A stretch of DNA of 64,000 bases from Streptomyces lienomycini (GTDB taxonomy: Bacteria > Actinomycetota > Actinomycetes > Streptomycetales > Streptomycetaceae): positions 6,322,001 through 6,386,000 of the forward strand of contig NZ_CP116257.1 of assembly GCF_027947595.1 (NCBI RefSeq), given 5' to 3'. A program made the translations under genes and the position numbers. Of this stretch, positions 31,647 through 51,522 are shown in pieces; positions within the stretch are counted from its first letter, which is position 1; every line of letters begins with the position of its first letter. The notes under the pieces were generated by a model. It made no database searches. It was not told where the DNA came from and was given only the letters and a program-made list of their open reading frames with translations.

Positions 31647-34600
31647 CTACCGCACGGCCACCGCCCGCACGATCTCCTGGGTGACCGAGCCGCCCCGGTC
31701 GTCGCGCGCCGACGCCCGCAGTGAGACGTGCTCCGCGCCGCGCGGCACGCTCAGCGTCCCCTGCCAGGACGCCTTCCCTCCGGTGCCACCGCCGCGCAGC
31801 CGGACCTGGTGCCAGCTCTTCCCGTCGTCGTAGGACGCCTCCAGCTTCCCGCCGCCGAGGGTCCCGGTGTCCGGGGCGCCCGCCACGTACCGCGCGCCGA
31901 GCCCGACGCGCAGCTTCTTCCCCCCGCGCACCTTCCCCGCGAGGTCGGTGTCCACGTCGAAGGAGAGGTTGATCAGCGGCAGGTAGGTCCACCGGTCCTG
32001 CGGTGTGGCCGCCGAGCGGAAGGTCCACTCCGCGTGCCCCTCGGTCGCCGACGGCCAGCGCGCCGCGTCGAGCGCGGTGTCGGTGACGAGCCGGTACGTG
32101 TGCTCGTCGGCGGGCGCGTTTGAGACGTAGGCGGCGGAACTCGGTCCCTGGTCGACCAGTTCGCCGTCCAGGTACACCGACGTCGTCTGCGTCATGCCGC
32201 TGTCCTCGTTCCACACGTCGCCGAAGCCGGTGTGGTCGGGGCCGGAGTCGCCCCAGCCGGGCGCGTTGAACTGGAGCCGGTTCCCGGCACGCTGCTGGCC
32301 CCAGCCGAGCCCGGTGCCGAGGTAGGGGTGCCACACCGGCTTGAACCAGTTCAGCTCCGTGTGCGAGCCGCCCCGGTACTCGACCAGTCCGCCGCGCTCC
32401 TCCAGCGCGTCACCCGCGCTGGTCACGGTCTCGTGCCACCGCTGGCCGGGTCCGGTGGAGACGTACTCGGTGCGCTCGACGGGGTAGCCGATCCGCTCGC
32501 GGAAGCCGAGGCCGATCGGGAAGGTGTCGGTGATCGAGTACCGGAACTCGCCGCCGCTCGCCGGTGCGTCGCCGTGGTACCTGGTGCGCAGCACGGCGAG
32601 GTCGCGGTGTCCGGGCTCGAAGGTGAGGTCCCGGTCGGGCACGGCGCCGGGGTGCCCCTCGGAGAGGTCGTACACGTAGGGCGTGTCGCGGGTGCCGGTC
32701 ATGTCGACCCGCCCGGCCTCGCGCAGTCGCCGGGCGTCGGCCGCGTCGACCGTGGCGATCTGCAGCGGCCGGTCGGCGTTGTCGTCCGTGCCCCACCACG
32801 ACGTCAGCCGTCCTGGCGTGTCGTCGGTCACGAACAGCGCCTTGACGCCCGCGTCCTGCGCGGCCCGCGCGAGCGCCGTCGGTGCGCTCCCGTCGGTGAG
32901 CCGGGCGAGGACCGCCTTGCCGCGTACGCCGTCCGGGAGGGCCCCGTCCCCGACGTCACCCGCGTCGACCAGCGGCAGCCGGGTGCGGCCCTCGAGCAGG
33001 GTGCCGCCGGCCTGGACGACGGCCTCGTCGATCCCCTTCACGTCGAGGAGCGGCTTGCCGAGCCGCCACACGGTCCGGTACTCGAAGCCGCCCTCGGTGA
33101 CCTTCTCCGTCGGTGCGGCGAAGACGCTGTCGTACGTCAGGGGCACCTGGACGGCGCCGAACAGGTCGGAGCCGTTCGCCTCGCGGTCGTACTCCATGAG
33201 GAGCTGCCGGGTCTCGGTGCGCCGGCCGACGTCCGCGCTGATCTCGCGCAGTTCGCGGCCGTCCAGGGTGATCTCGCGGTCGCGGTCGAGGACGACCTCC
33301 GGGGCGGCGAGGAAGCCGAGGCCGAGCGAGTCGGCGCCGTGGCTGCCGCGCACGTCGAGGAAGGACGCCAGGCTGTACGTCCCGGGCGCCAGCCGCAGCT
33401 CCAGGGTGCCGGAGTCACCGACGTGCGCGGGGAAGGGGTCGACGCCCTCGGTGAGCCGCTGGACGGTCAGGTCGGCCGGGGCGGCGGCGCCGGAGCGGTC
33501 CTTGACGTGCACGGTGAGCGTGTACCGCTCGTCCTCCTTGACCAGGCCGAACGCGGTGTGCGCGAGAGTGGTCCCGCTCGCGTCGGCCGCCACGACCTGC
33601 CCGCTGGTGCTGCCGACCGGCGCCTTGGCCCCGTCCCCGGTGAGGGTCGTGGCGGCGGTGCCGTGCGCGGGCACGGTGAGGGAGGTGTCGGCGAGCGTGG
33701 CGACGCCCTCGGGAGCGCCCCGCACGGACAGGGTCAGCTCGACGTCCGTGTCGGAGGAGTTGGTGTAGGTGACGGTCCTGGTGACCGGTTCGTTGCCGTC
33801 GTACGGCCAGGAGTAGAAGCCCAGGTCGGCGCTGCCGGTGGCGGTGACGTCGGCGTGGACGGCGTCCGGCACGCTGACCCGGCCCGCGCCCAGCTGGTAG
33901 GCGGAGGCGTCCAGCTCCATCGACGTGGACATCAGCGCGTCCTTGAGCCGGGCGCCCGTCCAGTCGGGGTGCTCCTCGGCGAGCAGGGCGGCCACCCCGG
34001 CGATGTGCGGCGTCGCCATCGACGTACCGTCCATGGACGTGTAGTCGCCGCTGCCCTCGGCGAGGCGGGAGCGGGCGGCGAGGATGCCGACGCCCGGGGC
34101 CGACAGGTCGGGCTTGAGGGCGTTGTCCCGGTAACGGGGCCCGGCGCTGGTGAACCAGGCGGCCTGGTCGGCGGAGTCGACCGCGCCCACGGTGAGGGCG
34201 GCGTCGGCCGCGCCGGGCGAGCCGATGGAGGACGGGGCGCCGGTGTTGCCGGCCGCGATCACGAACAGGGCGCCGGTCTCGCGGGACAGGGTGTTGACGG
34301 CCTCGGCCATCGGGTCGGTGCCGTCGCTGGGTTCGGTCGAGCCGAGGCTCATGGACACGATGTCGGCGTCCACGTCCCGGGCGGCCCACTCCATGCCCGC
34401 GATGATCTCCGACTCGCTGCCGAAGCCCTCGTCGTCCAGGACCTTGCCGACCGCGAGCGTGGCACCGGGGGCGACGCCCTTCTCCTTGCCGTCGGAGGCC
34501 GCGCCGCTGCCGCCCACGGTGGAGGTGACGTGCGTGCCGTGACCGTGCCGGTCGGCGACCTCCTCGCCGGGAATGAAGCTCCGGCTCCGCGCGATCCGCC

Positions 34601-35318
34601 CCGCCAGGTCGGGATGCCCGGCGTCCACGCCGCTGTCCAGGACGGCCACGGTGACGCCCTTGCCGGTCAGCCCCGCCTCCCAGGCCTCGGGCGTGCCGAT
34701 CTGGGCGTTGGACTCGGCCATGTCCGCGGTGACCCGCCCGTCGAGCCACACACGGTCGACACCGGCGCCGCCACGGGTGAATTCCCGCCAGAATTCACGG
34801 CTCTTGTCGGCCTCCACGGCCGCTCCGCGCACGCTGGGCAGCGCCCGGGTCCGCTCGGTCCCCCTCGGGGTGGCGGCCCGTGCGCTCCCGCCGTAGGTCA
34901 CGATCAGCGGCAGTTCGCCGGTCTCGGTGTCGGCGAGTCCCTGGTCCAGCAGCTCACCGACGTCGAAGAGCCGTTCGTCGAGGCTGCCGTCGCGCAGGTA
35001 GGGCACGGCCTCGTCCGGTACGACGGTGGTCCGGCCGCCGGAGCCGCTGGTGCGCACGGCCCCGGTGGCGCCCTCGGGCCGGTCGACCGTGACGGTCTTT
35101 CGGCCGCCGCCGAGGTCGGTGACGGTCACCCGGTCGCCGGTGACGAGGGTGACGGTGCGGGCGGCGCCTGCCGCGGTGGCCGTGCGGACGGAGGCCGCCG
35201 GGGTGTCCGCCGGGTGCGGGGCCGGTTCCCGCGCGGCCGCCGTCCAGGCGGGCAGCAGCGCGATCACGAGCCCCGCCGACAGGAGGGCCGCCCCACGTCT
35301 GACTGGTCCTGTGCTCAT
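31647..35318 (-). CDS. secreted subtilisin-like serine protease (S8), large multidomain
   Basis: 1223 residues. Signal peptide (RRGAALLSAGLVIALLPAWTAAA, cut near residue 28), a propeptide (about 30-205), and an S8 catalytic domain with Asp228 (AVLDSGVDAGHPDL), His260 (HGHGTHV), oxyanion Asn358 (AAGNTGA) and Ser433 (GTSMATPH). About 750 residues of beta-rich C-terminal domains follow, including a PA-like region (about 780-880). The triad is complete, so it should be an active extracellular peptidase. It corresponds in position to S. coelicolor SCO2446. ATG 35318 has only a weak ribosome site (AAGAGAGA). It is transcribed away from the conflict-type cluster that follows. Confidence 0.92.
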   Translation of the reverse strand: MSTGPVRRGAALLSAGLVIALLPAWTAAAREPAPHPADTPAASVRTATAAGAARTVTLVTGDRVTVTDLGGGRKTVTVDRPEGATGAVRTSGSGGRTTVVPDEAVPYLRDGSLDERLFDVGELLDQGLADTETGELPLIVTYGGSARAATPRGTERTRALPSVRGAAVEADKSREFWREFTRGGAGVDRVWLDGRVTADMAESNAQIGTPEAWEAGLTGKGVTVAVLDSGVDAGHPDLAGRIARSRSFIPGEEVADRHGHGTHVTSTVGGSGAASDGKEKGVAPGATLAVGKVLDDEGFGSESEIIAGMEWAARDVDADIVSMSLGSTEPSDGTDPMAEAVNTLSRETGALFVIAAGNTGAPSSIGSPGAADAALTVGAVDSADQAAWFTSAGPRYRDNALKPDLSAPGVGILAARSRLAEGSGDYTSMDGTSMATPHIAGVAALLAEEHPDWTGARLKDALMSTSMELDASAYQLGAGRVSVPDAVHADVTATGSADLGFYSWPYDGNEPVTRTVTYTNSSDTDVELTLSVRGAPEGVATLADTSLTVPAHGTAATTLTGDGAKAPVGSTSGQVVAADASGTTLAHTAFGLVKEDERYTLTVHVKDRSGAAAPADLTVQRLTEGVDPFPAHVGDSGTLELRLAPGTYSLASFLDVRGSHGADSLGLGFLAAPEVVLDRDREITLDGRELREISADVGRRTETRQLLMEYDREANGSDLFGAVQVPLTYDSVFAAPTEKVTEGGFEYRTVWRLGKPLLDVKGIDEAVVQAGGTLLEGRTRLPLVDAGDVGDGALPDGVRGKAVLARLTDGSAPTALARAAQDAGVKALFVTDDTPGRLTSWWGTDDNADRPLQIATVDAADARRLREAGRVDMTGTRDTPYVYDLSEGHPGAVPDRDLTFEPGHRDLAVLRTRYHGDAPASGGEFRYSITDTFPIGLGFRERIGYPVERTEYVSTGPGQRWHETVTSAGDALEERGGLVEYRGGSHTELNWFKPVWHPYLGTGLGWGQQRAGNRLQFNAPGWGDSGPDHTGFGDVWNEDSGMTQTTSVYLDGELVDQGPSSAAYVSNAPADEHTYRLVTDTALDAARWPSATEGHAEWTFRSAATPQDRWTYLPLINLSFDVDTDLAGKVRGGKKLRVGLGARYVAGAPDTGTLGGGKLEASYDDGKSWHQVRLRGGGTGGKASWQGTLSVPRGAEHVSLRASARDDRGGSVTQEIVRAVAVR

Positions 35319-35544: not shown

Positions 35545-35931
35545 ATGGACGGATTGGTCGAGTTCAAGACCGAGGACGGCGTACGGGTGGTCGTGGAAGG
35601 CGTCGAGGACGAGGACGGCGCGCGGCTGGTCTCGCGCGGCGACGGACCGGCCCGGGCGGCCCGCACGTTCGAGGAGTCGCTGGACGGGGTGCGGGCGGCG
35701 GCCGCCTCCGCGCTGCGGGTGTTCAGGGACGGCTCGCTGCGACCCGACTCGGTGGAGCTGGAGTTCGGGGTGAAGCTGAGCGCGGAGGCCGGGGCCGTGA
35801 TCGCGAAGGGCTCGGCGGAGGGCCATCTGGTCGTGAAGCTGAGCTGGTCGCCCGAGCCGTCCCCGACCCGCTCCGAGCCGGAGCCCGCTTCGACGCGTCC
35901 CGAGACCCCGGACGCCGCCCCGCTGTCATGA
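35545..35931 (+). CDS. Trypco1-type (CU044_2847-like) protein
   Basis: 128 residues. Beta-strand start (MDGLVEFKTEDG), then ASRTFEES-like segment (ARTFEESLDGVRAAAASALRVF) and the family-like core DSVELEFGVKLSAEAGAVIAKGSAEGHLVVKLSW. This is the small domain known as trypsin-co-occurring domain 1, found beside trypsin-like proteases and MoxR ATPases. It has no catalytic site and probably guides or holds the protease. The chosen ATG 35545 has GGGGAG eleven bases upstream; a longer reading from 35497 lacks support. Its stop overlaps the protease start (ATGA), which indicates a stoichiometric pair. Confidence 0.8.
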   Translation: MDGLVEFKTEDGVRVVVEGVEDEDGARLVSRGDGPARAARTFEESLDGVRAAAASALRVFRDGSLRPDSVELEFGVKLSAEAGAVIAKGSAEGHLVVKLSWSPEPSPTRSEPEPASTRPETPDAAPLS

Positions 35932-37598
35932 GCGGTGCCGCGTGGCACGCCCGCGTGGAGTGCGGCAAGGAGGTCGGCGCCGGATTCCTGGTCTCCGCCC
36001 GCCGGTTGCTCACCTGCGCCCACGTCGTCCGATGGGCCGACCGTGCGCCGGTGACGGTGTCCTTCCCCGGCCGCCGGGAGCTGGGCGAGCTGTCCGGCAC
36101 CGTCGCCGTGCACGGCGGCTGGCGGGACGGCCCCGCCGACCCCGGCGACCTGGCCGTACTGGAACTGGACCGCGAGGTGCCGCTCGCCCCGGCCGCCTTC
36201 GCCCCGCCCGGCGCCGAACGGACCACGCCCGCCCCCGAACTGATCGCCTACGGCTTCCCCAAGGGGTACGACGAGGGCATGCTCGCCTCCTACCGGGCCC
36301 TGCCCGGACCGCTCATCTCGGACGAGTGGGTGCAGTTGGAGGCGCTCACGGGGCACGGGCAGCCGCTGGCGGCCGGGTTCAGCGGCGCGGCGCTGACGCT
36401 GGCCGACGGCACGGTCGTCGGGATGGTCTCCGCGGTCGCGGGCGCCCGTGACGTGCGCGTCGGCAGGATGCTGCCCGTCGAGGTCATGGCCCGCTACTGG
36501 CCGGAGCTGGGCGAGCTGGTGCCCACGCCCGGCCATCGGGCCGACGCCCGCAGACGGTTGTACGCGCTGGTGCGGCGGGCCGAGGAGACCGGCCTGGACT
36601 GCGACCCGAACCGGCTGTACGTCTCCGCCATGGACGCGTTCGACCCGCCGCCCCCGGAAGGGGGGTTCGCCTCCCTGCGGGAGGTCGCCGCGTACGTCCA
36701 GTGGGAGGTGCCGGAGCCGGCGGCCGTGGCCCGGTTCGCCGACCGGCTGGAGCGGCGGCTGCACGCGCCGCCGCCGCCCGCCGCGGCCTGGTCGCCCATC
36801 GTCGTGGAGATCGACCACAGCGGTGCCGGCGCCGACCAGGTCACCGTCGAGGTGTCCGCCTACCGGGACGGGCAGCGCCGCCCGGTGGGCTCGCGCCGAC
36901 TGGCCCGCGGCGCCGTGCGGGCCTACGTACAGGAGTGCATCGACGAGGCGTTCGCGCAGCTCGACCCCGGCGCCGACGAACTGCTCACCTTCGTCCTCCC
37001 GCGCGAGTGGCTGAACGAGCCGGTGGCGCACTGGGCGTGCGGGGAGGACGACTCCACGCCGCTGGGCTGCGCCTACCCGCTCGTGGTGACCGACCGGTAC
37101 CGGCACCGCAGCGGACGCCTGCGCCACCAGCTCCGGAAGAAGTGGCGCAAGCTCGGCGCCAGTCCGGGCGGCACGCTGCACCGCGTCGACTGCGGCACCC
37201 GCGAGCGGCCGGCCGGGCTGCGCAAGCGGCTGCGGGACGACGCGGAGCTGGCCGGTTTCGCCACCGCGCCCACGGCGGCACCGGAGTACTTCGAGGTCGG
37301 CCTCAACCTCCCCGTCCCCGTCCTGCTGTGGCCCCGTCACGGCTGCCACGGCAACGGACACGACGGGCCCGACGGCCCCGACGGCCCGTGCTCCGGCGCG
37401 GAGTTCCTCGACGAACTGGCCCTGTCCGTGGCGGGCGTGCCCCCGGCCGAACTCCCCCGCCTGGTCATGGAGCTGCGCGAGACGGCGGACGCGTCCGACA
37501 CCCCGGAGCGGCACTGGGCGCGGGACGTCCAGCTCCTGTGGGACGACCCCCGCTGCTTCACCGAGCCCCCCGCCCTGCTCCACTCCCCCGTCGGATGA
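35928..37598 (+). CDS. trypsin-like serine protease with VMAP-C-like C-terminal region
   Basis: 556 residues, no signal peptide, so cytoplasmic. Catalytic triad of a chymotrypsin fold: His32 (TCAHVV), Asp74 (GDLAVLEL) and Ser152 (AGFSGAAL). From about residue 195 the protein follows the VMAP pattern (vWA-MoxR-associated protein): a helical middle (RRRLYALVRRAEETGL, then FASLREVAAYVQW), then a beta/alpha domain starting IVVEIDHSG, with FVLPREWLNEPVAHWA and YPLVVTDRYRHRS, and the ending LLWDDPRCFTEP. The design suggests a protease held inactive until a signal is relayed by its MoxR and Trypco1 partners. It starts inside the stop of the Trypco1 gene. Confidence 0.85.
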   Translation: MSGAAWHARVECGKEVGAGFLVSARRLLTCAHVVRWADRAPVTVSFPGRRELGELSGTVAVHGGWRDGPADPGDLAVLELDREVPLAPAAFAPPGAERTTPAPELIAYGFPKGYDEGMLASYRALPGPLISDEWVQLEALTGHGQPLAAGFSGAALTLADGTVVGMVSAVAGARDVRVGRMLPVEVMARYWPELGELVPTPGHRADARRRLYALVRRAEETGLDCDPNRLYVSAMDAFDPPPPEGGFASLREVAAYVQWEVPEPAAVARFADRLERRLHAPPPPAAAWSPIVVEIDHSGAGADQVTVEVSAYRDGQRRPVGSRRLARGAVRAYVQECIDEAFAQLDPGADELLTFVLPREWLNEPVAHWACGEDDSTPLGCAYPLVVTDRYRHRSGRLRHQLRKKWRKLGASPGGTLHRVDCGTRERPAGLRKRLRDDAELAGFATAPTAAPEYFEVGLNLPVPVLLWPRHGCHGNGHDGPDGPDGPCSGAEFLDELALSVAGVPPAELPRLVMELRETADASDTPERHWARDVQLLWDDPRCFTEPPALLHSPVG

Positions 37599-37686
37599 GC
37601 CGCGGCCACGAGGACGCCCCCGCCCCCGCCCCCGCCGTGCACGCGACGAACCGACCGCCGTACCGATCGTTCGGAGAGAAGAACCC

Positions 37687-38712
37687 ATGCCCCTGTGGCC
37701 CGTCTACACCGGCGCGCCGGCCCCCCACGACGGCATCACCCGGCTGCCCGCGCCCCCGCCCTGGCGGGACTTCGACGGCGGCCCCGTACTGGATCCGCCC
37801 GGCACGGACGGCGAGGCCCCGGCCGCCTCGCCCGACCGCGTCCACCGCGCCGCGACCTACCAGGCCACCGAGGACACGGTGCAACTGGTCAACGCGGCCC
37901 TGTACCTGCGGCGCCCGCTGCTGGTCACCGGCCCGCCCGGCACCGGCAAGTCCTCCCTGGCCTACGCGGTCGCCCGTGAGCTGCGGCTCGGCCCGGTCCT
38001 CAGGTGGAACATCACCAGCCGCAGCACGCTGGGCGACGGCCTCTACACCTACGACCCGCTCTCCCGGCTGTACGCGGCCCGCCACGCCCCGCAGCGGGAC
38101 GACGCCGCGGCGGAGGCACCGGGCGTCGAGGACCACCTGCGGCTGGGCCCGCTCGGCACCGCCCTGCTGCCCTACGCCCGGCCGCGCGCCCTGCTCATCG
38201 ACGAGATCGACAAGAGCGACCTCGACCTGCCGAACGACCTGCTGCACGTCCTGGAGGAGGGCCAGTACGAGATCCCGGAACTCGTCCGGGCCTCCCGTCA
38301 GATCCCCGGCGGGCGGGCCGAGGTGCTGATCGACGGCACCGACCGGCGGGTGCCGGTGGAGCGCGGCCGGGTCCGCTGCAAGGCCTTCCCCTTCGTCGTC
38401 CTCACCAGCAACGGCGAACGCGAGTTCCCGCCCGCGTTCCTGCGCCGCTGCGTCTCGCTGCGGCTGCGGCAGCCCGACGACGACCACCTCGCCGAGATCG
38501 TCCGCGCCCACCTGGGCGAGCCGGACGGGTACGCGCAGCAGCTCATCCACCGGTTCCTGTCCCGGGTGGGCAGCGGCGAACTGGCCACGGACCAGTTGCT
38601 CAACGCCATCTACCTGGCCCGCTCCTCCGGCCTCGGCACCGATTCCCTGGACGAGCTGGCCGAGCAGCTGATGCCGTACCTGGGCAGGTCCGCGCAGCCC
38701 GACGCCTTCTGA
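37687..38712 (+). CDS. MoxR-type AAA+ ATPase
   Basis: 341 residues. Walker A TGPPGTGKSS (81-90), Walker B ALLIDEIDKSD (Asp172, Glu173), sensor I VLTSNGERE, and an arginine-finger region FPPAFLRRCV. MoxR ATPases act as chaperones that assemble or remodel partner proteins. The N-terminal 50 residues are proline-rich. It sits between the protease and the 1356-residue protein; its stop and the next start overlap (TGATG), so they are translated together. In the related systems the ATPase is thought to license or threshold the effector response. Confidence 0.9.
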   Translation: MPLWPVYTGAPAPHDGITRLPAPPPWRDFDGGPVLDPPGTDGEAPAASPDRVHRAATYQATEDTVQLVNAALYLRRPLLVTGPPGTGKSSLAYAVARELRLGPVLRWNITSRSTLGDGLYTYDPLSRLYAARHAPQRDDAAAEAPGVEDHLRLGPLGTALLPYARPRALLIDEIDKSDLDLPNDLLHVLEEGQYEIPELVRASRQIPGGRAEVLIDGTDRRVPVERGRVRCKAFPFVVLTSNGEREFPPAFLRRCVSLRLRQPDDDHLAEIVRAHLGEPDGYAQQLIHRFLSRVGSGELATDQLLNAIYLARSSGLGTDSLDELAEQLMPYLGRSAQPDAF

Positions 38713-41700
38713 TGCCCGCCGACCGCACCGGCCGCACCGGCCCACCGGAGCCCCCTCCGCTGCCCCGCCTGGCCGGCATCCTCGGCAGGACGGCGGCCTC
38801 CGGCGACCGTCCCACCCCGCTCGAACTGGCCGAACTCCTGTGGCTCGCCGGCCACATGGAGCCCCCGGCGCAGGACCCGCCGGACGGCCCGGCGTCCGCA
38901 GCCCGGCCCGAGGGACCGCCGGGGGCCGCACCGGAGCGGGACCGGGAGCCGGGGCGTCGGCACGGTGCGGAGCGGAACCGGCACGAGGACGGAGAGCGGC
39001 ACGACGACCGGGACCGGCACGAGGACGGGGAGCCGTGGCAGGGCCGCCGGTCCGGGGGCGACCGCCCGTCGAAGACCCCGCACCGGGCCGAGGCGCCCCG
39101 CACCCCGCTGCGCCTGCCCTCCCCGGCCCCCGCCCCGGGCACCTCGGCGGCCCAGCCGCACAGTGCCCTGCTCGCGCCCGCACCGCCGATGCTGCGCCGC
39201 ACGCTGGCGCTGCAGCGTGCCCTGCGTCCGCTGAAGCGCCGTACCGACGCGCCCGTGGGCCGGGAGGTGGACGAGTCCGCGACCGCCGACCGCATCGCGC
39301 GCCTGGGTGCGGACCCCGAGCACTGGCTGCCCGTACTGCGCCCCGTGCGGGAGCGGTGGCTGCGCCTGCACCTGGTGCACGACGCGGGTCCCACGATGCC
39401 CGTCTGGCAGCCCCTCGTCCGCGAACTGCACGCCGCGCTGGCCCAGTCGGGTGTCTTCCGCACCGTCGCCCTGCACCGCGCGGAACCCGACGGCACCGTC
39501 CGCGGCGACGGCGCCGAGGTCCCCGCCGACGGCCGTACGGTCACGCTGCTGATCAGCGACTGCATGGGCCCGCAGTGGCGCGAGGGGCGGGCCGGGACCC
39601 GCTGGTTCGCCACCCTGCGCCGCTGGGCGCACCGCACGCCCCTGGCCGTCCTGCAACCGCTGCCCGAGCAGCTGTGGCGGGACACCGCCCTGCCGCCGGT
39701 GCCGGGCCGGCTGTCGGCCCCGCACCGGGCCGCGCCCAGCGCCTCGCTCGCCTTCACCCCCTACGACGACGGGGCGCCCCGGGACCCCGGACGGGCGGTG
39801 CACGTGCCCGTGCTGGAGCCGGGCCCCGAGTGGCTGGCGAACTGGGCCGCGCTGGTCGCGAGCCCGGGCGGCACCCGGTACCCGGGGGCGGCGGCCACGC
39901 TGCGGCGCCCGCTGCCCGCCGACGCCGACGACCGTGCCGACCCGGCGCGGCTGTCCGCCGAGGAACTCGTCCTGCGCTTTCGCGCGAGCGCGTCCCCACA
40001 GGCCTACCGGCTGGCCGGACACCTCGCGCTGGGGCGCCCCGACCTGCCCGTGATGCGGCTGGTGCAGGCCGCGGTCGAGCCCGACCCGCGGCCCCAGCAC
40101 CTGGCCGAGGTCATCCTCGGCGGACTGCTCACCGCGGTCGCCGGGCCGCCCGGCTCCTACGCCTTCCGCCCCGGCGTGCGCGACCTCCTGCTGCGCGGGC
40201 TGCCCCGCACCGCCCGCAACCGCACACACGAACTACTGCTGCGCACCGGCGGCCTGATCGACGAACGGGCGGGGCGCTCGCCCGGCGAGTTCCGCGCGCT
40301 GATCCCGTCCCGGGAGGGCACCGAGCGGGCCGACGCGAGCGAGTCGTTCGCCGCGATCAGCCAGGAGAGCGCCCGGCAGCTGGCCGTGCGGGAGCGGCCC
40401 TCGCCCCCCTCGCCCCCCTCGCCCTTCCCGGCCGCCCTCGGCGCGCGCTACCGGCCGACGCGCCGGCTCGCGCCGGCCGGGAGGATGTGGCTGGCGGAGG
40501 ACACCACGGCGGACCGGACGGCCGCGAACCGGACGGTGGCGATCCGCCTGCACGACACGGACGCCGACCCGGCCTCGCGCCGGGCGTTCCTGCGGGACGC
40601 GCGCCACCTGACGCGGATCGCCCACCCGAACGTCGTGACCGTCCTCGACGCGGGTATCGAGGACGACGTGCCGTACGTCGTCATGGAGCACCTCGACGGC
40701 ATGGCGCTGAGCGCCCTCACCCGGTCGGGTGAACGGCGGCTGCCGTTGCCGCTGACGGTGTCGGCGGGGGCGCAGCTGGCACGGGCACTCACCGCCCTGC
40801 ACCGGGCGGGCGTCGCGCACGGACGTCTGGAGGCGTCCCGGGTGGTCCTGCTGCCGGACGGCACGGTCCGGCTCAGCCTCTTCGAACCGGGACGGGCCTC
40901 GGGCCCCGCGGGTCGCTCCGCGGACCTGAGGGGTCTGTGCGCCCTCATGCTGCACCTGACCTCGGGGGCCTCGCACCCGACCGCCCCGATCGACTCCCGC
41001 CGCCTGGACCGGCTCCCCGCCGACCTGCGCATCCACTACGCGCACGCCTTCGACCAGCTGATGTCCACCTCGTCGGCGGCGCAGGCCCGGGGGCTCGAAC
41101 TGCTCGCGGACCCGCGGCTGCTGGCCCGGGCGAAGGAGGCGTACACGCCGCGCCGGTACCGTGCCCTGGGCCCGCTGCGCGTCGACCTTCTGGACGCCCC
41201 GCCCCGCCCCGACCCGGACGTGCGCGCGCTGCTGGCGATGCTGCTGCTCAAGCACGGCCGCACGGTGACGCACGAGGAGCTGCGGTGGGGTTTGTGGGAC
41301 CCGGGCGACGAGCCCCGCAACCCGAAGGCCGAGGTGACCCGGCTGGCGACGCGCCTGGCGGACGTCCTGGGCCCGGGCGTCCTCGCGAAGTCCGCCCACG
41401 GCTACGCCCTGCACACCAGCGCCGACGACCTGGACCTGGTGCGCTGCGACGAACTGGTGCGCCGCGCCGACGCGGCCGGTCTCCAGGACGCGCCGGCCGA
41501 GGCCCACCGCCTGTTCACCGAGGCGCTGGCGCTGTGGCGCGGCACCGAGCCCCTCGCGGACGTGCCCGGTCCCGCCGCCCGTACCGCCCGCACCCGCCTG
41601 CTGCGGCTGCGGCTCGCCCTGCACACCAAGCGCGCCGAACTCGACCTGGCCCTCGGCGAGTACGACCGGGCCTCCACCGAACTGTCCGGACTGCTGCGGG

Positions 41701-42782
41701 CCCACCCCCACCGGGAGGACTTCCGCCGCCTGTACCTGATCGCGCTGCGCCGCCAGGGCCGGGGCGAGGAGGCCCTGGAGGTGTACGAGGAGTACGAGCT
41801 GTCCGGGGGGCGCAGTCCGGCCCTGACGGCACTGGGCCAAGAGCTGCGCGAGGAGCACGCCGGGCCGGTGGACGACGCGCCGTGGTCGGAGTACGAGGAG
41901 CGGCCCCAGGGCCCGGACGGCACCGAGTCCGTCGTGGCCGCGCCGGACGAGCTGCCGGAGGGCCCCTTCCCCACCGAGGACCGTCTGTGGACGCCGCTGC
42001 TGTCGGACGACGCGGAGCACGACACGGCACGGGCCCACGAGCGCAGGGCGGCGAGGGAGGATCGGGAGGAGAGGGAGGAACGCGCGGCGCGGCGGGACGC
42101 GCTGCGGGACGAGGGACCGGAACCGGAACCCGAACGGGACGAGGAGCCAGGACCCGGCCCGGCGGCCGGGGAGCCGGACGACCCGGAGGACGACCTCGAC
42201 ACCGCCTTCCGTGGCTGCGCCCGCTACGCCTTCGCCGCGGAGCCGGCGGGCCGGGGCAGCCCGCGCAGCCCGGGAAACCCGGCCGACCACGACGCCCGCG
42301 CGGCCCTGCACGGCGTGGTCACGGACCTGCTGGCGGACAGCGGCATGGACGGCGCCTCCTACCAGCTCCTGGACGACGACGGCGGCCTGCTGGTGCTGCT
42401 GTCGCCGCGCGCCGAGGCCGCCCCGCTGCTGAGGGCGACCGTGGCGGGTCTGCCCGGGCTGCTGCCGCACCTGGGAGGCCGGCGGCTGCGGGCGGAGTTC
42501 TGGCAGACGGAGTTCTGGCTGGACGGCACCGGGGAGCAGGCCTTCCGCGCCGCCGAGGAGTCGGTCGGCGCGGTCCTGGACGCCTCCCCCGCGCAGGCGG
42601 TCGTCGCCCTCTCGGACTCCCTCTACTACGACGAGGTGTGCGAGGAGGGCCAGGACGGGCCCGCCTTCCCGCCGGACCTCTTCCGGCCGCTGCCCGACGA
42701 CACCGGCTGGTACCGCCTGGTCGACGGCGCCGGCGCCGGCGCCCCGGGCGAGGGCCCGGCGGACGGGGCCGGCGGGAGCTGA
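38712..42782 (+). CDS. large multidomain protein: SAV_2336-type N-terminus, pseudokinase, SARP-like wHTH/BTAD, degenerate cyclase-like tail
   Basis: 1356 residues from ATG 38712. Residues about 20-570 match the SAV_2336 N-terminal-type region (LALQRALRPLKRR, WLPVLRPVRERWLRLHLVHDAGPTM, LLISDCMGPQWREG, FRASASPQAYRLAGHLA). About 578-806 is a kinase fold without catalytic residues: VAIR for the lysine strand VAIK, HGRLEASRV for HRDxKxxN, and SLFEPG for DFG. About 815-1053 is an OmpR-type winged helix plus BTAD tetratricopeptide domain (LGPLRVDLLDAPPRPDPDVRALLAMLLL; LRLRLALHTKRAELDLALGEYDRA), as in SARP regulators. An acidic/Arg-rich linker follows, then a cyclase-like domain (about 1163-1350; LHGVVTDLLADSGM, DGGLLVLLSPRAE, VALSDSLYYDEV) lacking metal-binding aspartates. 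Probably a sensor/scaffold for the protease and ATPase. Confidence 0.8.
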   Translation: MPADRTGRTGPPEPPPLPRLAGILGRTAASGDRPTPLELAELLWLAGHMEPPAQDPPDGPASAARPEGPPGAAPERDREPGRRHGAERNRHEDGERHDDRDRHEDGEPWQGRRSGGDRPSKTPHRAEAPRTPLRLPSPAPAPGTSAAQPHSALLAPAPPMLRRTLALQRALRPLKRRTDAPVGREVDESATADRIARLGADPEHWLPVLRPVRERWLRLHLVHDAGPTMPVWQPLVRELHAALAQSGVFRTVALHRAEPDGTVRGDGAEVPADGRTVTLLISDCMGPQWREGRAGTRWFATLRRWAHRTPLAVLQPLPEQLWRDTALPPVPGRLSAPHRAAPSASLAFTPYDDGAPRDPGRAVHVPVLEPGPEWLANWAALVASPGGTRYPGAAATLRRPLPADADDRADPARLSAEELVLRFRASASPQAYRLAGHLALGRPDLPVMRLVQAAVEPDPRPQHLAEVILGGLLTAVAGPPGSYAFRPGVRDLLLRGLPRTARNRTHELLLRTGGLIDERAGRSPGEFRALIPSREGTERADASESFAAISQESARQLAVRERPSPPSPPSPFPAALGARYRPTRRLAPAGRMWLAEDTTADRTAANRTVAIRLHDTDADPASRRAFLRDARHLTRIAHPNVVTVLDAGIEDDVPYVVMEHLDGMALSALTRSGERRLPLPLTVSAGAQLARALTALHRAGVAHGRLEASRVVLLPDGTVRLSLFEPGRASGPAGRSADLRGLCALMLHLTSGASHPTAPIDSRRLDRLPADLRIHYAHAFDQLMSTSSAAQARGLELLADPRLLARAKEAYTPRRYRALGPLRVDLLDAPPRPDPDVRALLAMLLLKHGRTVTHEELRWGLWDPGDEPRNPKAEVTRLATRLADVLGPGVLAKSAHGYALHTSADDLDLVRCDELVRRADAAGLQDAPAEAHRLFTEALALWRGTEPLADVPGPAARTARTRLLRLRLALHTKRAELDLALGEYDRASTELSGLLRAHPHREDFRRLYLIALRRQGRGEEALEVYEEYELSGGRSPALTALGQELREEHAGPVDDAPWSEYEERPQGPDGTESVVAAPDELPEGPFPTEDRLWTPLLSDDAEHDTARAHERRAAREDREEREERAARRDALRDEGPEPEPERDEEPGPGPAAGEPDDPEDDLDTAFRGCARYAFAAEPAGRGSPRSPGNPADHDARAALHGVVTDLLADSGMDGASYQLLDDDGGLLVLLSPRAEAAPLLRATVAGLPGLLPHLGGRRLRAEFWQTEFWLDGTGEQAFRAAEESVGAVLDASPAQAVVALSDSLYYDEVCEEGQDGPAFPPDLFRPLPDDTGWYRLVDGAGAGAPGEGPADGAGGS

Positions 42783-43018: not shown

Positions 43019-44068
43019 ATGACCGCCAGTACCCCCAGCCTGGAGGCGCTGCGCCGCTGCCACTTCGCCGTCGACCTGGGCGCGGCGCGGACCCGCGTGT
43101 ACGTGAAGGGTGCCGGGCTCGTCGTCGACCAGCCGTCCGCCGCGGCGATCAACACCCGGACCGGCGCGCTCATCGCGGTCGGCGAGTTCGCGGAGAAGAT
43201 GACCGGCCGCACCCCGGGCTACATCCGCGTCGTACGGCCCGTCTCCGGCGGCACGGTCGTCGACATCGAGATGGCCCAGCGCATGCTGCGGCACCTGCTC
43301 GGCGACCGGGTCCGCCGGGCCCTGCGCCGCAAGCCCCGGCTGCGCGCCGCGGTCTGCACTCCGCACGACGCGGACCCGCTGTCCCAGCGGGCGGCGATCG
43401 AGACGCTGGTCGGGCTCGGCGCGCGCCGGGTGGAACTCGTCGACACGCTGATCGCCGCGGCGGTCGGCTGCGGACTGCCCGTGGAACAGCCCGAGGCGAC
43501 CATGATCATGGTGTGCGGGGCGCACGCCACGCAGGTCGCGGTGCTCTCCCTCGGCTCGATCGTGACCGCCGTACGCATCCCGGTGGGCGGTGAGGCCGTG
43601 GACCACGCGATCGTGCAGCTCCTGCGCCACCAGCACGAACTGGTGCTTCCCAGCCAGTCCGTGCGCCCGCTGCAACTCGCCCTGTCCGGCAACGGGCTGA
43701 CCCCGCAGGGGCCGTCCACCACCGAGATCCACGGGCGGGACGTGGCGACCGGCCTCGCGCGCAGTGTGCGGGTCGACACGGCCACGGTGCGCAACGCGAT
43801 CCAGACGCCGCTGACGGCCGTGCTCGACGGCATCGGCAAGGTGCTGCGGGACTGCCCGCCGGATCTGGTCGCGGACCTCGCCGACCGCGGGATCATGATG
43901 GTCGGCGGGAGCGCGCTGCTGCCGGGCTTCGACCAGATGCTGCGTCAGGCCACGGGCATGCCGGTGCACATCGCGGAGCGGCCCGACGTGTGCGCGGTCC
44001 AGGGCCTCGGCAGCATGCTGGAGGGCCGGGTCGAGCCGCTGGTGCTGCACCCGACGTCCGCGGACTGA
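43019..44068 (+). CDS. mbl: MreB-like actin homologue Mbl
   Basis: 349 residues of the MreB/Mbl actin family, involved in spore wall synthesis in Streptomyces. Seen: N-terminal phosphate-1 motif FAVDLGAARTRVYVKGAG, VRPVSGGTVVDIEMAQRMLRHLL, PHDADPLSQRAAIETLVGLGARRVELVDTLIAAAVG, and ADRGIMMVGGSALLPGFDQML. The second phosphate motif (DIGGGTT in MreB) is degenerate here (MVCGAHATQVAV), which also marks the Streptomyces Mbl type. ATG 43019 follows GGGAGGA. By order it matches S. coelicolor SCO2451, the mbl gene. There are no mreC or mreD genes beside it, unlike the mreB locus. Confidence 0.9.
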   Translation: MTASTPSLEALRRCHFAVDLGAARTRVYVKGAGLVVDQPSAAAINTRTGALIAVGEFAEKMTGRTPGYIRVVRPVSGGTVVDIEMAQRMLRHLLGDRVRRALRRKPRLRAAVCTPHDADPLSQRAAIETLVGLGARRVELVDTLIAAAVGCGLPVEQPEATMIMVCGAHATQVAVLSLGSIVTAVRIPVGGEAVDHAIVQLLRHQHELVLPSQSVRPLQLALSGNGLTPQGPSTTEIHGRDVATGLARSVRVDTATVRNAIQTPLTAVLDGIGKVLRDCPPDLVADLADRGIMMVGGSALLPGFDQMLRQATGMPVHIAERPDVCAVQGLGSMLEGRVEPLVLHPTSAD

Positions 44069-51445: not shown

Positions 51446-51522
51446 TGGTGGGGCGGGTGGGACTCGAACCCACGGCCGGCGGATTATGAGTCCGCTGCTC
51501 TAACCGGCTGAGCTACCGCCCC
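51446..51522 (-). tRNA. tRNA with CAU anticodon (tRNA-Ile2 or elongator tRNA-Met)
   Basis: Cloverleaf: acceptor GGGGCGG/CCGCCCC, D-arm GCTC...GAGC, anticodon stem GCGGA/TCCGC with loop CTCATAA, T-loop TTCGAGT. CCA is encoded in the DNA. CAU can be elongator methionine or the lysidine-modified isoleucine tRNA. The body cannot separate these by eye. It is not the initiator, since the acceptor begins with a paired G1-C72. Confidence 0.9.

Follow-up and report, generated by a model that had tools for sequence, protein, structure and literature searches.

The closest described relatives of the four-gene locus that we studied in Streptomyces lienomycini (contig NZ_CP116257.1, positions 6,322,001 to 6,386,000 of the forward strand; this whole stretch of 64,000 nucleotides is called the window) are the VMAP ternary systems (vWA-MoxR subsystem 1) reported by Kaur et al. 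in 2020 (PMC7159879). In VMAP ternary systems the genes follow the order VMAP, MoxR and vWA, and the vWA component comes last and carries a variable, often inactive C-terminal cassette. A VMAP with a trypsin domain at its N-terminus has a Trypco1 or Trypco2 gene next to it. Kaur et al. reported that the domains behind the vWA include mostly inactive Ser/Thr/Tyr kinases, kinases coupled to winged helix-turn-helix (wHTH) domains, and inactive cyclases, and stated that cassette modules are typically acquired inactive. They also described two N-terminal MoxR motifs, WxhapG and PsWRxa, which by their account occur only in the MoxRs of VMAP-type systems. Another article has proposed that the vWA protein is the sensor and that the VMAP protease acts (PMC10907252), which conflicts with PMC7159879.

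The window locus has this same arrangement. One operon on the plus strand encodes a Trypco1 protein, a VMAP component with an N-terminal trypsin domain and a VMAP-C domain, a MoxR ATPase with both motifs, and a protein of 1356 residues with a cassette at its C-terminus. We regard the locus as almost certainly a VMAP ternary (vWA-MoxR-VMAP) conflict system of the Trypco1-trypsin subtype, and it is a common Streptomyces version of a four-gene conflict machine that has already been described. The first-pass annotation of this DNA had proposed that linked Trypco1, trypsin-VMAP-C and MoxR genes form part of a known type of NTP-dependent conflict system. Our result agrees with this: Pfam and NCBIfam searches matched Trypco1 and VMAP-C, the MoxR motifs were found, and the comparison of neighbourhoods that the annotation had called for showed that the linkage is kept in other genomes.

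The profile matches of the Trypco1, VMAP-C, trypsin and SAV_2336 N-terminal families were all far above chance; VMAP-C, for example, scored 153.5 against a cut-off of 27. Trypco1 lies directly upstream of the trypsin-type VMAP gene, and 668 homologues of it were found at E ≤ 0.001 among 2289 candidates. The Trypco1 gene is 86% identical to one listed from the laboratory species S. lividans, where that gene alone was compared; the Trypco1 profile had no meaningful match among PDB profiles. In Pfam the MoxR protein matched only the generic AAA_5/AAA families, at about 7e-7. In 76 aligned MoxR rows, the window included, W4 was kept in 73 and PPWR in all, as were the Walker A lysine, the Walker B acids and the sensor asparagine. 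The protease triad is likewise invariant in 121 rows; the homologues in such alignments are the 120 closest out of 832 and out of 504, a choice biased towards near relatives. PADLOC gave generic matches, namely the protease to RT-Protease and Avs1b (best 4.5e-6), the MoxR to IetA and similar proteins, and the kinase region of the large protein to PD-T4-6 kinases (best 1.5e-21).

The identity of the large protein completes this picture. By its sequence, its N-terminus is a vWA co-chaperone that keeps the two aspartates of a metal ion-dependent adhesion site (MIDAS). D224 and D283 lie at the ends of predicted strands; 119 of 121 rows retain each of them, and gaps account for three of the four exceptions. 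We searched 246 genomes of the class with the vWA region, 42 of which matched at 1e-8, and built a broad-family alignment of 33 rows (23 of 30 loci given and ten other rows, including the window). The core profile of these rows matched the CoxE vWA profile with p = 7e-5 and a middling HHalign probability of 63%, and VWA_2 with 9.5e-5 and 59%, whereas five unrelated control profiles gave at least 0.23. With the full-length broad profile the values were 1.8e-4 for CoxE vWA and 9.6e-4 for VWA_2, against at least 0.055 for the controls, and the match falls in the MIDAS register. By eye, the textbook DxSxS is present in 11 of the 33 rows, and SD or TD stands at strand 4 in most. The region C-terminal to the vWA core, where the published systems have an extension with conserved S, E and R, is well conserved.

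Pfam gave no vWA match for the window protein, and one of 34 aligned members hit VWA_CoxE at 0.015. A profile of close relatives gave no significant vWA match; only the broader family alignment produced one. Comparison of the vWA alignment with PDB profiles yielded no meaningful match. The N-terminal helix reads LELAELLWLA by eye, with its acids three apart, whereas the published [D/E]xxx[D/E]xxxa has four. We take the large protein to be the vWA component, and with it the locus has every member of a VMAP ternary system, arranged as published. The large protein had earlier been described as a sensor or regulator with pseudokinase and SARP modules; these modules are indeed present, but its vWA N-terminus had been missed. 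Homologues of the large protein numbered 832 at E ≤ 0.001 among 7987 candidates scored, with the architecture checked in only part of them.

Unlike the core, the cassette appears to be disabled. The kinase region reads VAIR, HGR and LFE where an active kinase has the VAIK lysine, the HRD aspartate and the DFG aspartate, so by its sequence it is probably not an active Ser/Thr protein kinase. In 121 rows the VAIK lysine is arginine in 117, the HRD position is aspartate in 4, and the DFG position is leucine in 104. The SARP module was compared with 12 residues listed as DNA contacts of AfsR (PMC10936776): W74 and R92 are kept, nine are substituted and one is unaligned, and AfsR-type DNA binding by the window SARP is thus not predicted. 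The same genome has an AfsR-like gene in a frame of 993 residues, 45% identical to the window SARP.

Between the SARP and the C-terminal domain, the linker is variable except for the motif APDELPEGxFPTED, which is conserved in near relatives. We considered this motif as a protease cleavage site and do not claim it as one, because it is confined to near relatives. The C-terminus had been called cyclase-like, which our searches do not confirm: the domain had no cyclase match in Pfam, among PDB profiles or in a cyclase profile-profile comparison, the fold of the domain alone not having been searched. Proteases, or else kinases and SARPs, took up the two VIA-align lists, where VMAP-C, vWA and the C-terminal domain were never at the centre of a row, and the Foldseek list for the large protein held SARP and kinase chains; these lists are therefore uninformative on the folds of VMAP-C, vWA and the C-terminal domain. 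We also searched for a leftover HAD domain 3' of the gene for the large protein and found none.

The positions of all features are collected in Table 1. The Trypco1 and VMAP genes overlap by 4 bp, the VMAP and MoxR genes are separated by 88 bp, and the MoxR gene overlaps that of the large protein by 1 bp; the two overlaps point to a single operon. The Trypco1 frame is open from 35497, and the start is most likely at 35545, where the first-pass annotation had placed it, since 14 of 17 aligned relatives begin at that methionine.

Table 1. Genes, domains and motifs of the VMAP ternary locus, in window coordinates.
Feature	Position	Strand	Evidence
Trypco1 (trypsin-co-occurring domain 1) protein	35545..35931	+	PF19493 1.2e-27; NF041216 (CU044_2847) 3e-24
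VMAP component, 556 aa: trypsin-like protease, helical middle region and VMAP-C	35928..37598	+	Trypsin_2 4.2e-11, VMAP-C 1.1e-44, structure model
Trypsin-like protease domain, residues 1-193	35928..36506	+	H32, D74, S152 kept in 121/121 rows
VMAP-C domain, residues 303-541	36834..37550	+	PF20028
MoxR AAA+ ATPase, 341 aa; WPVYTG, PPWRDF, Walker A/B, sensor 1	37687..38712	+	
vWA component with C-terminal cassette, 1356 aa	38712..42782	+	
SAV_2336_NTERM region with vWA domain inside, residues 37-522	38820..40277	+	NF041121 2.3e-124
vWA core, residues about 215-320; MIDAS-type Asp224, Asp283	39354..39671	+	
Predicted pseudokinase, residues about 567-811	40410..41144	+	
SARP module (winged helix and BTAD), residues about 812-1050	41145..41861	+	2/12 AfsR DNA contacts kept
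Short motif APDELPEGPFPTED, residues 1077-1090, in linker	41940..41981	+	Kept in near relatives; low model confidence
C-terminal alpha/beta domain, residues 1164-1338; cyclase identity not confirmed	42201..42725	+	

We then examined how the locus is distributed. VMAP-C was found in 55 of 100 relatives (the window genome included) against 0 of 14 control genomes. Of 199 Streptomyces genomes, 91 had a match to the window VMAP protein, in many cases over the protease only; 35 genomes, its own included, reached 4e-43 or better (counted from the listing, with a few fragments). A scan of named genomes gave 196 VMAP relatives; the best 80 were kept, and 63 of these had enough flank to be usable. All four genes stand in order in 62 of the 63 usable loci, which are from Streptomyces, the exception being L138, in which vWA was undetected. 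Three further Streptomyces loci (L060, L064 and L068) have a partial VMAP and no MoxR or vWA match, with Trypco1 in L060 and L068; they are apparently decayed copies of the operon.

Both the kinase-like and the SARP modules occur in 48 of the 63 loci. The first-pass annotation had suggested that the combination with a pseudokinase-SARP-cyclase-like protein may be undescribed; given this count, and since inactive kinases, kinase-wHTH coupling and inactive cyclases are already in PMC7159879, that claim falls. By composition, the cassettes comprise kinase, SARP, C-domain and HAD (39 loci); kinase, SARP and C-domain (8, the type of the window); C-domain and HAD (7); kinase, C-domain and HAD (7); kinase and SARP (1); and none of these (1). 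On a quick MoxR and vWA tree with 63 rows (62 loci and the window), the fewest module changes were 6 for the kinase, 6 for the SARP and 8 for HAD, counts that come without a shuffled control and that missed detections or recombination would inflate; SARP is absent in 14 of the rows. For the 27 of 80 loci in which tblastn detected all parts, the median identity to the window was 85% for Trypco1, 79.5% for MoxR, 71% for vWA, 69% for VMAP, 61.5% for SARP, 55% for the kinase and 39% for the C-domain. Thus, the cassette diverges faster than the core.

Other loci carry other cassettes. In L063 the same core bears a kinase-like domain with a NaeI domain (1.9e-111), in L065 it is AAA_16-TPR, and in L067 and L070 it consists of tubulin-like domains. 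The window genome has a second VMAP-C system (L066, G000:C1:2089000-2105000), whose vWA protein ends in NB-ARC-TPR and beside which no Trypco1 match was found. NaeI was present in 44 of 295 Streptomyces genomes, and we fetched the best 30 loci. In 29 of these the frames are short (320-491 aa), too short for a vWA cassette protein; the single fused one (L281) is the L063 gene. At the compared site, a lysine that we take to be catalytic is present in 28 of the 29 unfused proteins and gapped in one, whereas the fused protein has valine. When 12 further NaeI stretches were retrieved, the gapped protein proved to have the lysine, and so did two others; all 29 unfused NaeIs readable at the site keep it. 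In the other nine of these 12 stretches the active-site stretch was not found by pattern and was not read, and no VMAP, MoxR or vWA match was found in the 12. That the swapped module lacks the lysine is in line with the view of Kaur et al. that such modules are typically inactive when acquired (PMC7159879).

The system is present or absent as a block, and its place in the chromosome is mostly fixed, as the shared upstream gene and the empty sites indicate. A carboxyltransferase gene lies upstream in 64 of the 67 named loci with 9 kb upstream. For the empty sites, we examined nine genomes with the carboxyltransferase gene and without a match to the window VMAP. In L157 and L158 the carboxyltransferase gene is followed after 0.4-0.5 kb, and in L153 and L154 after about 2 kb, by the counterpart of the window gene at 43219-43896, with neither subtilase nor system between them. 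That gene was not found in the stretches of L155, L156 and L159-L161, which are therefore uninformative on the far border. In the window it lies on the minus strand, encodes 225 aa without a Pfam match at E 0.01, forms the downstream border and is kept at the four empty sites. The nearest tRNA is at 51446. A gene for a 1223-aa subtilase (31647-35318, minus strand) adjoins the system divergently; it is present in 36 of the 67 loci with 9 kb upstream and thus comes and goes independently of the system.

How such a system might work can be read in more than one direction. We tentatively favour, at slightly less than an even chance, a cassette serving as bait or sensor, MoxR as the switch and the protease as the output, over the release of the cassette as effector. 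This preference arises because the protease and the MoxR motifs are intact, whereas the checked cassette modules appear to lack key residues; the VMAP protease is the only effector-type enzyme found with intact catalytic residues, and the disabled cassette parts look more like bait than weapons. The faster divergence and repeated module turnover of the cassette, and the AfsR-like gene of the same genome, also speak for bait. What follows is inferred, both as to a complex that carries bait and as to signal direction and defence. In the resting state, Trypco1 and the VMAP protease would sit in an inactive complex with the MoxR ring and the vWA protein. The cassette (the pseudokinase, the SARP impaired in DNA binding and the C-terminal domain) would be bait that mimics ordinary Streptomyces signalling proteins, and an invader protein would bind to it. 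The vWA domain would relay this to MoxR, which would remodel the complex using ATP; the trypsin-like protease would be freed, and proteolysis might limit invasion, perhaps by cell death. The first-pass annotation had likewise made the protease the effector and the large protein the sensor, which is the proposal of PMC10907252 as against PMC7159879, and on sequence grounds the data for the clade of the window lean to it. However, several observations weigh against a bait cassette. The VAIK lysine is retained in 2 of 121 rows, and by eye the kinase-like domain of L063 retains the lysine, the HxD aspartate and the DFG aspartate. The SARPs of P0082, P0104 and P0111 are close to AfsR by eye and may still bind DNA. 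Positions for sigma/beta contact are partly kept (R62 in 118, E68 in 104 and E77 in 91 of 121 rows, with D71 in 1). The AAA and NB-ARC-TPR modules of L065 and L066 may be active, the NaeI swap is a single fused gene, and no direct phage link was found.

The opposite direction, in which the protease releases the cassette, was proposed in PMC7159879, and we consider it possible though on the whole doubtful. In this model the variable middle region of VMAP senses the invader, MoxR-vWA remodels, the protease cuts the vWA protein, and the cassette is released as effector, either a decoy or dominant-negative binder or a DNA-binding SARP. It would suit the facts that the cassette is the most variable part, that NaeI, NB-ARC-TPR, AAA-TPR or tubulin-like modules replace it elsewhere, and that the linker motif lies in a low-confidence region, as a cleavage or docking site might. 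However, a pattern for the core of that motif matched 67 of 120 homologues and 4 of the 33 vWA proteins of the wider set. Moreover, key residues are missing from the NaeI swap as well as from the kinase and SARP modules in the clade of the window, so that as released enzymes or DNA binders these modules would do little, although this leaves room for binding roles. The altered SARP contacts, its absence from a part of the tree, the patchy occurrence and the empty sites also make it quite unlikely that the locus is mainly a regulatory or developmental switch rather than a defence, in which proteolysis of the vWA protein would free the SARP and alter transcription. That four unrelated housekeeping genes are neighbours by chance has next to no probability; several flanking genes are indeed ordinary metabolic or sensor genes, but the conserved order and the sites without all four genes refute this explanation, and the gene overlaps also speak against it.

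A bait cassette can be carried one step further. It is conceivable, though we think it somewhat unlikely, that bacteria have an "integrated decoy" in the vWA cassette, for which pieces of the signalling and restriction proteins of Streptomyces itself would have been repeatedly copied, disabled and wired to the MoxR-vWA switch, so that a phage protein that attacks the real pathway would trip the VMAP protease. If true, the arrangement would have its counterpart in the integrated decoys of plant immune receptors, and cassette content would be a readout of phage targets in Streptomyces.

Compared with known systems, much of this locus is familiar: PMC7159879 already reports this type of system, its inactive kinases and the coupling of kinase to wHTH. 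The large protein exceeds the cut-off of SAV_2336_NTERM (NF041121) and Trypco1 that of CU044_2847 (NF041216), which are listed as family names without function. We have not come across earlier accounts of the SARP and its altered DNA face, of the module-turnover counts, of empty sites or of a NaeI swap that lacks the lysine. The words "btad" and "sarp" are absent from the main text of PMC7159879 by text search, and in the open-licence literature, supplements excluded, we recognised no naming of SARP in a VMAP system and no experimental test of one. In contrast to the wHTH of PMC7159879, that of the window is a full SARP (winged helix and BTAD) with an altered DNA-contact face. It is 40% identical to AfsR over 237 residues in a structure alignment, but unlike AfsR it is fused behind vWA and a pseudokinase, has no detected NOD or TPR, and has most DNA contacts changed. 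VMAP loci with diversity-generating retroelements (PMC10907252) share MoxR, a vWA target protein, a trypsin VMAP and Trypco1 with the window, whereas Pfam matched no C-type lectin or variable domain in the window large protein, no search having been aimed at a reverse transcriptase. Many Streptomyces have VMAP systems, and the two published models disagree on which component senses and which acts (PMC7159879, PMC10907252). The clade of the window makes this question testable, because it combines an intact protease with cassette modules that, where checked, are not intact, a close relative of its Trypco1 gene is listed from the laboratory species S. lividans, and the natural empty sites and cassette variants provide the controls.
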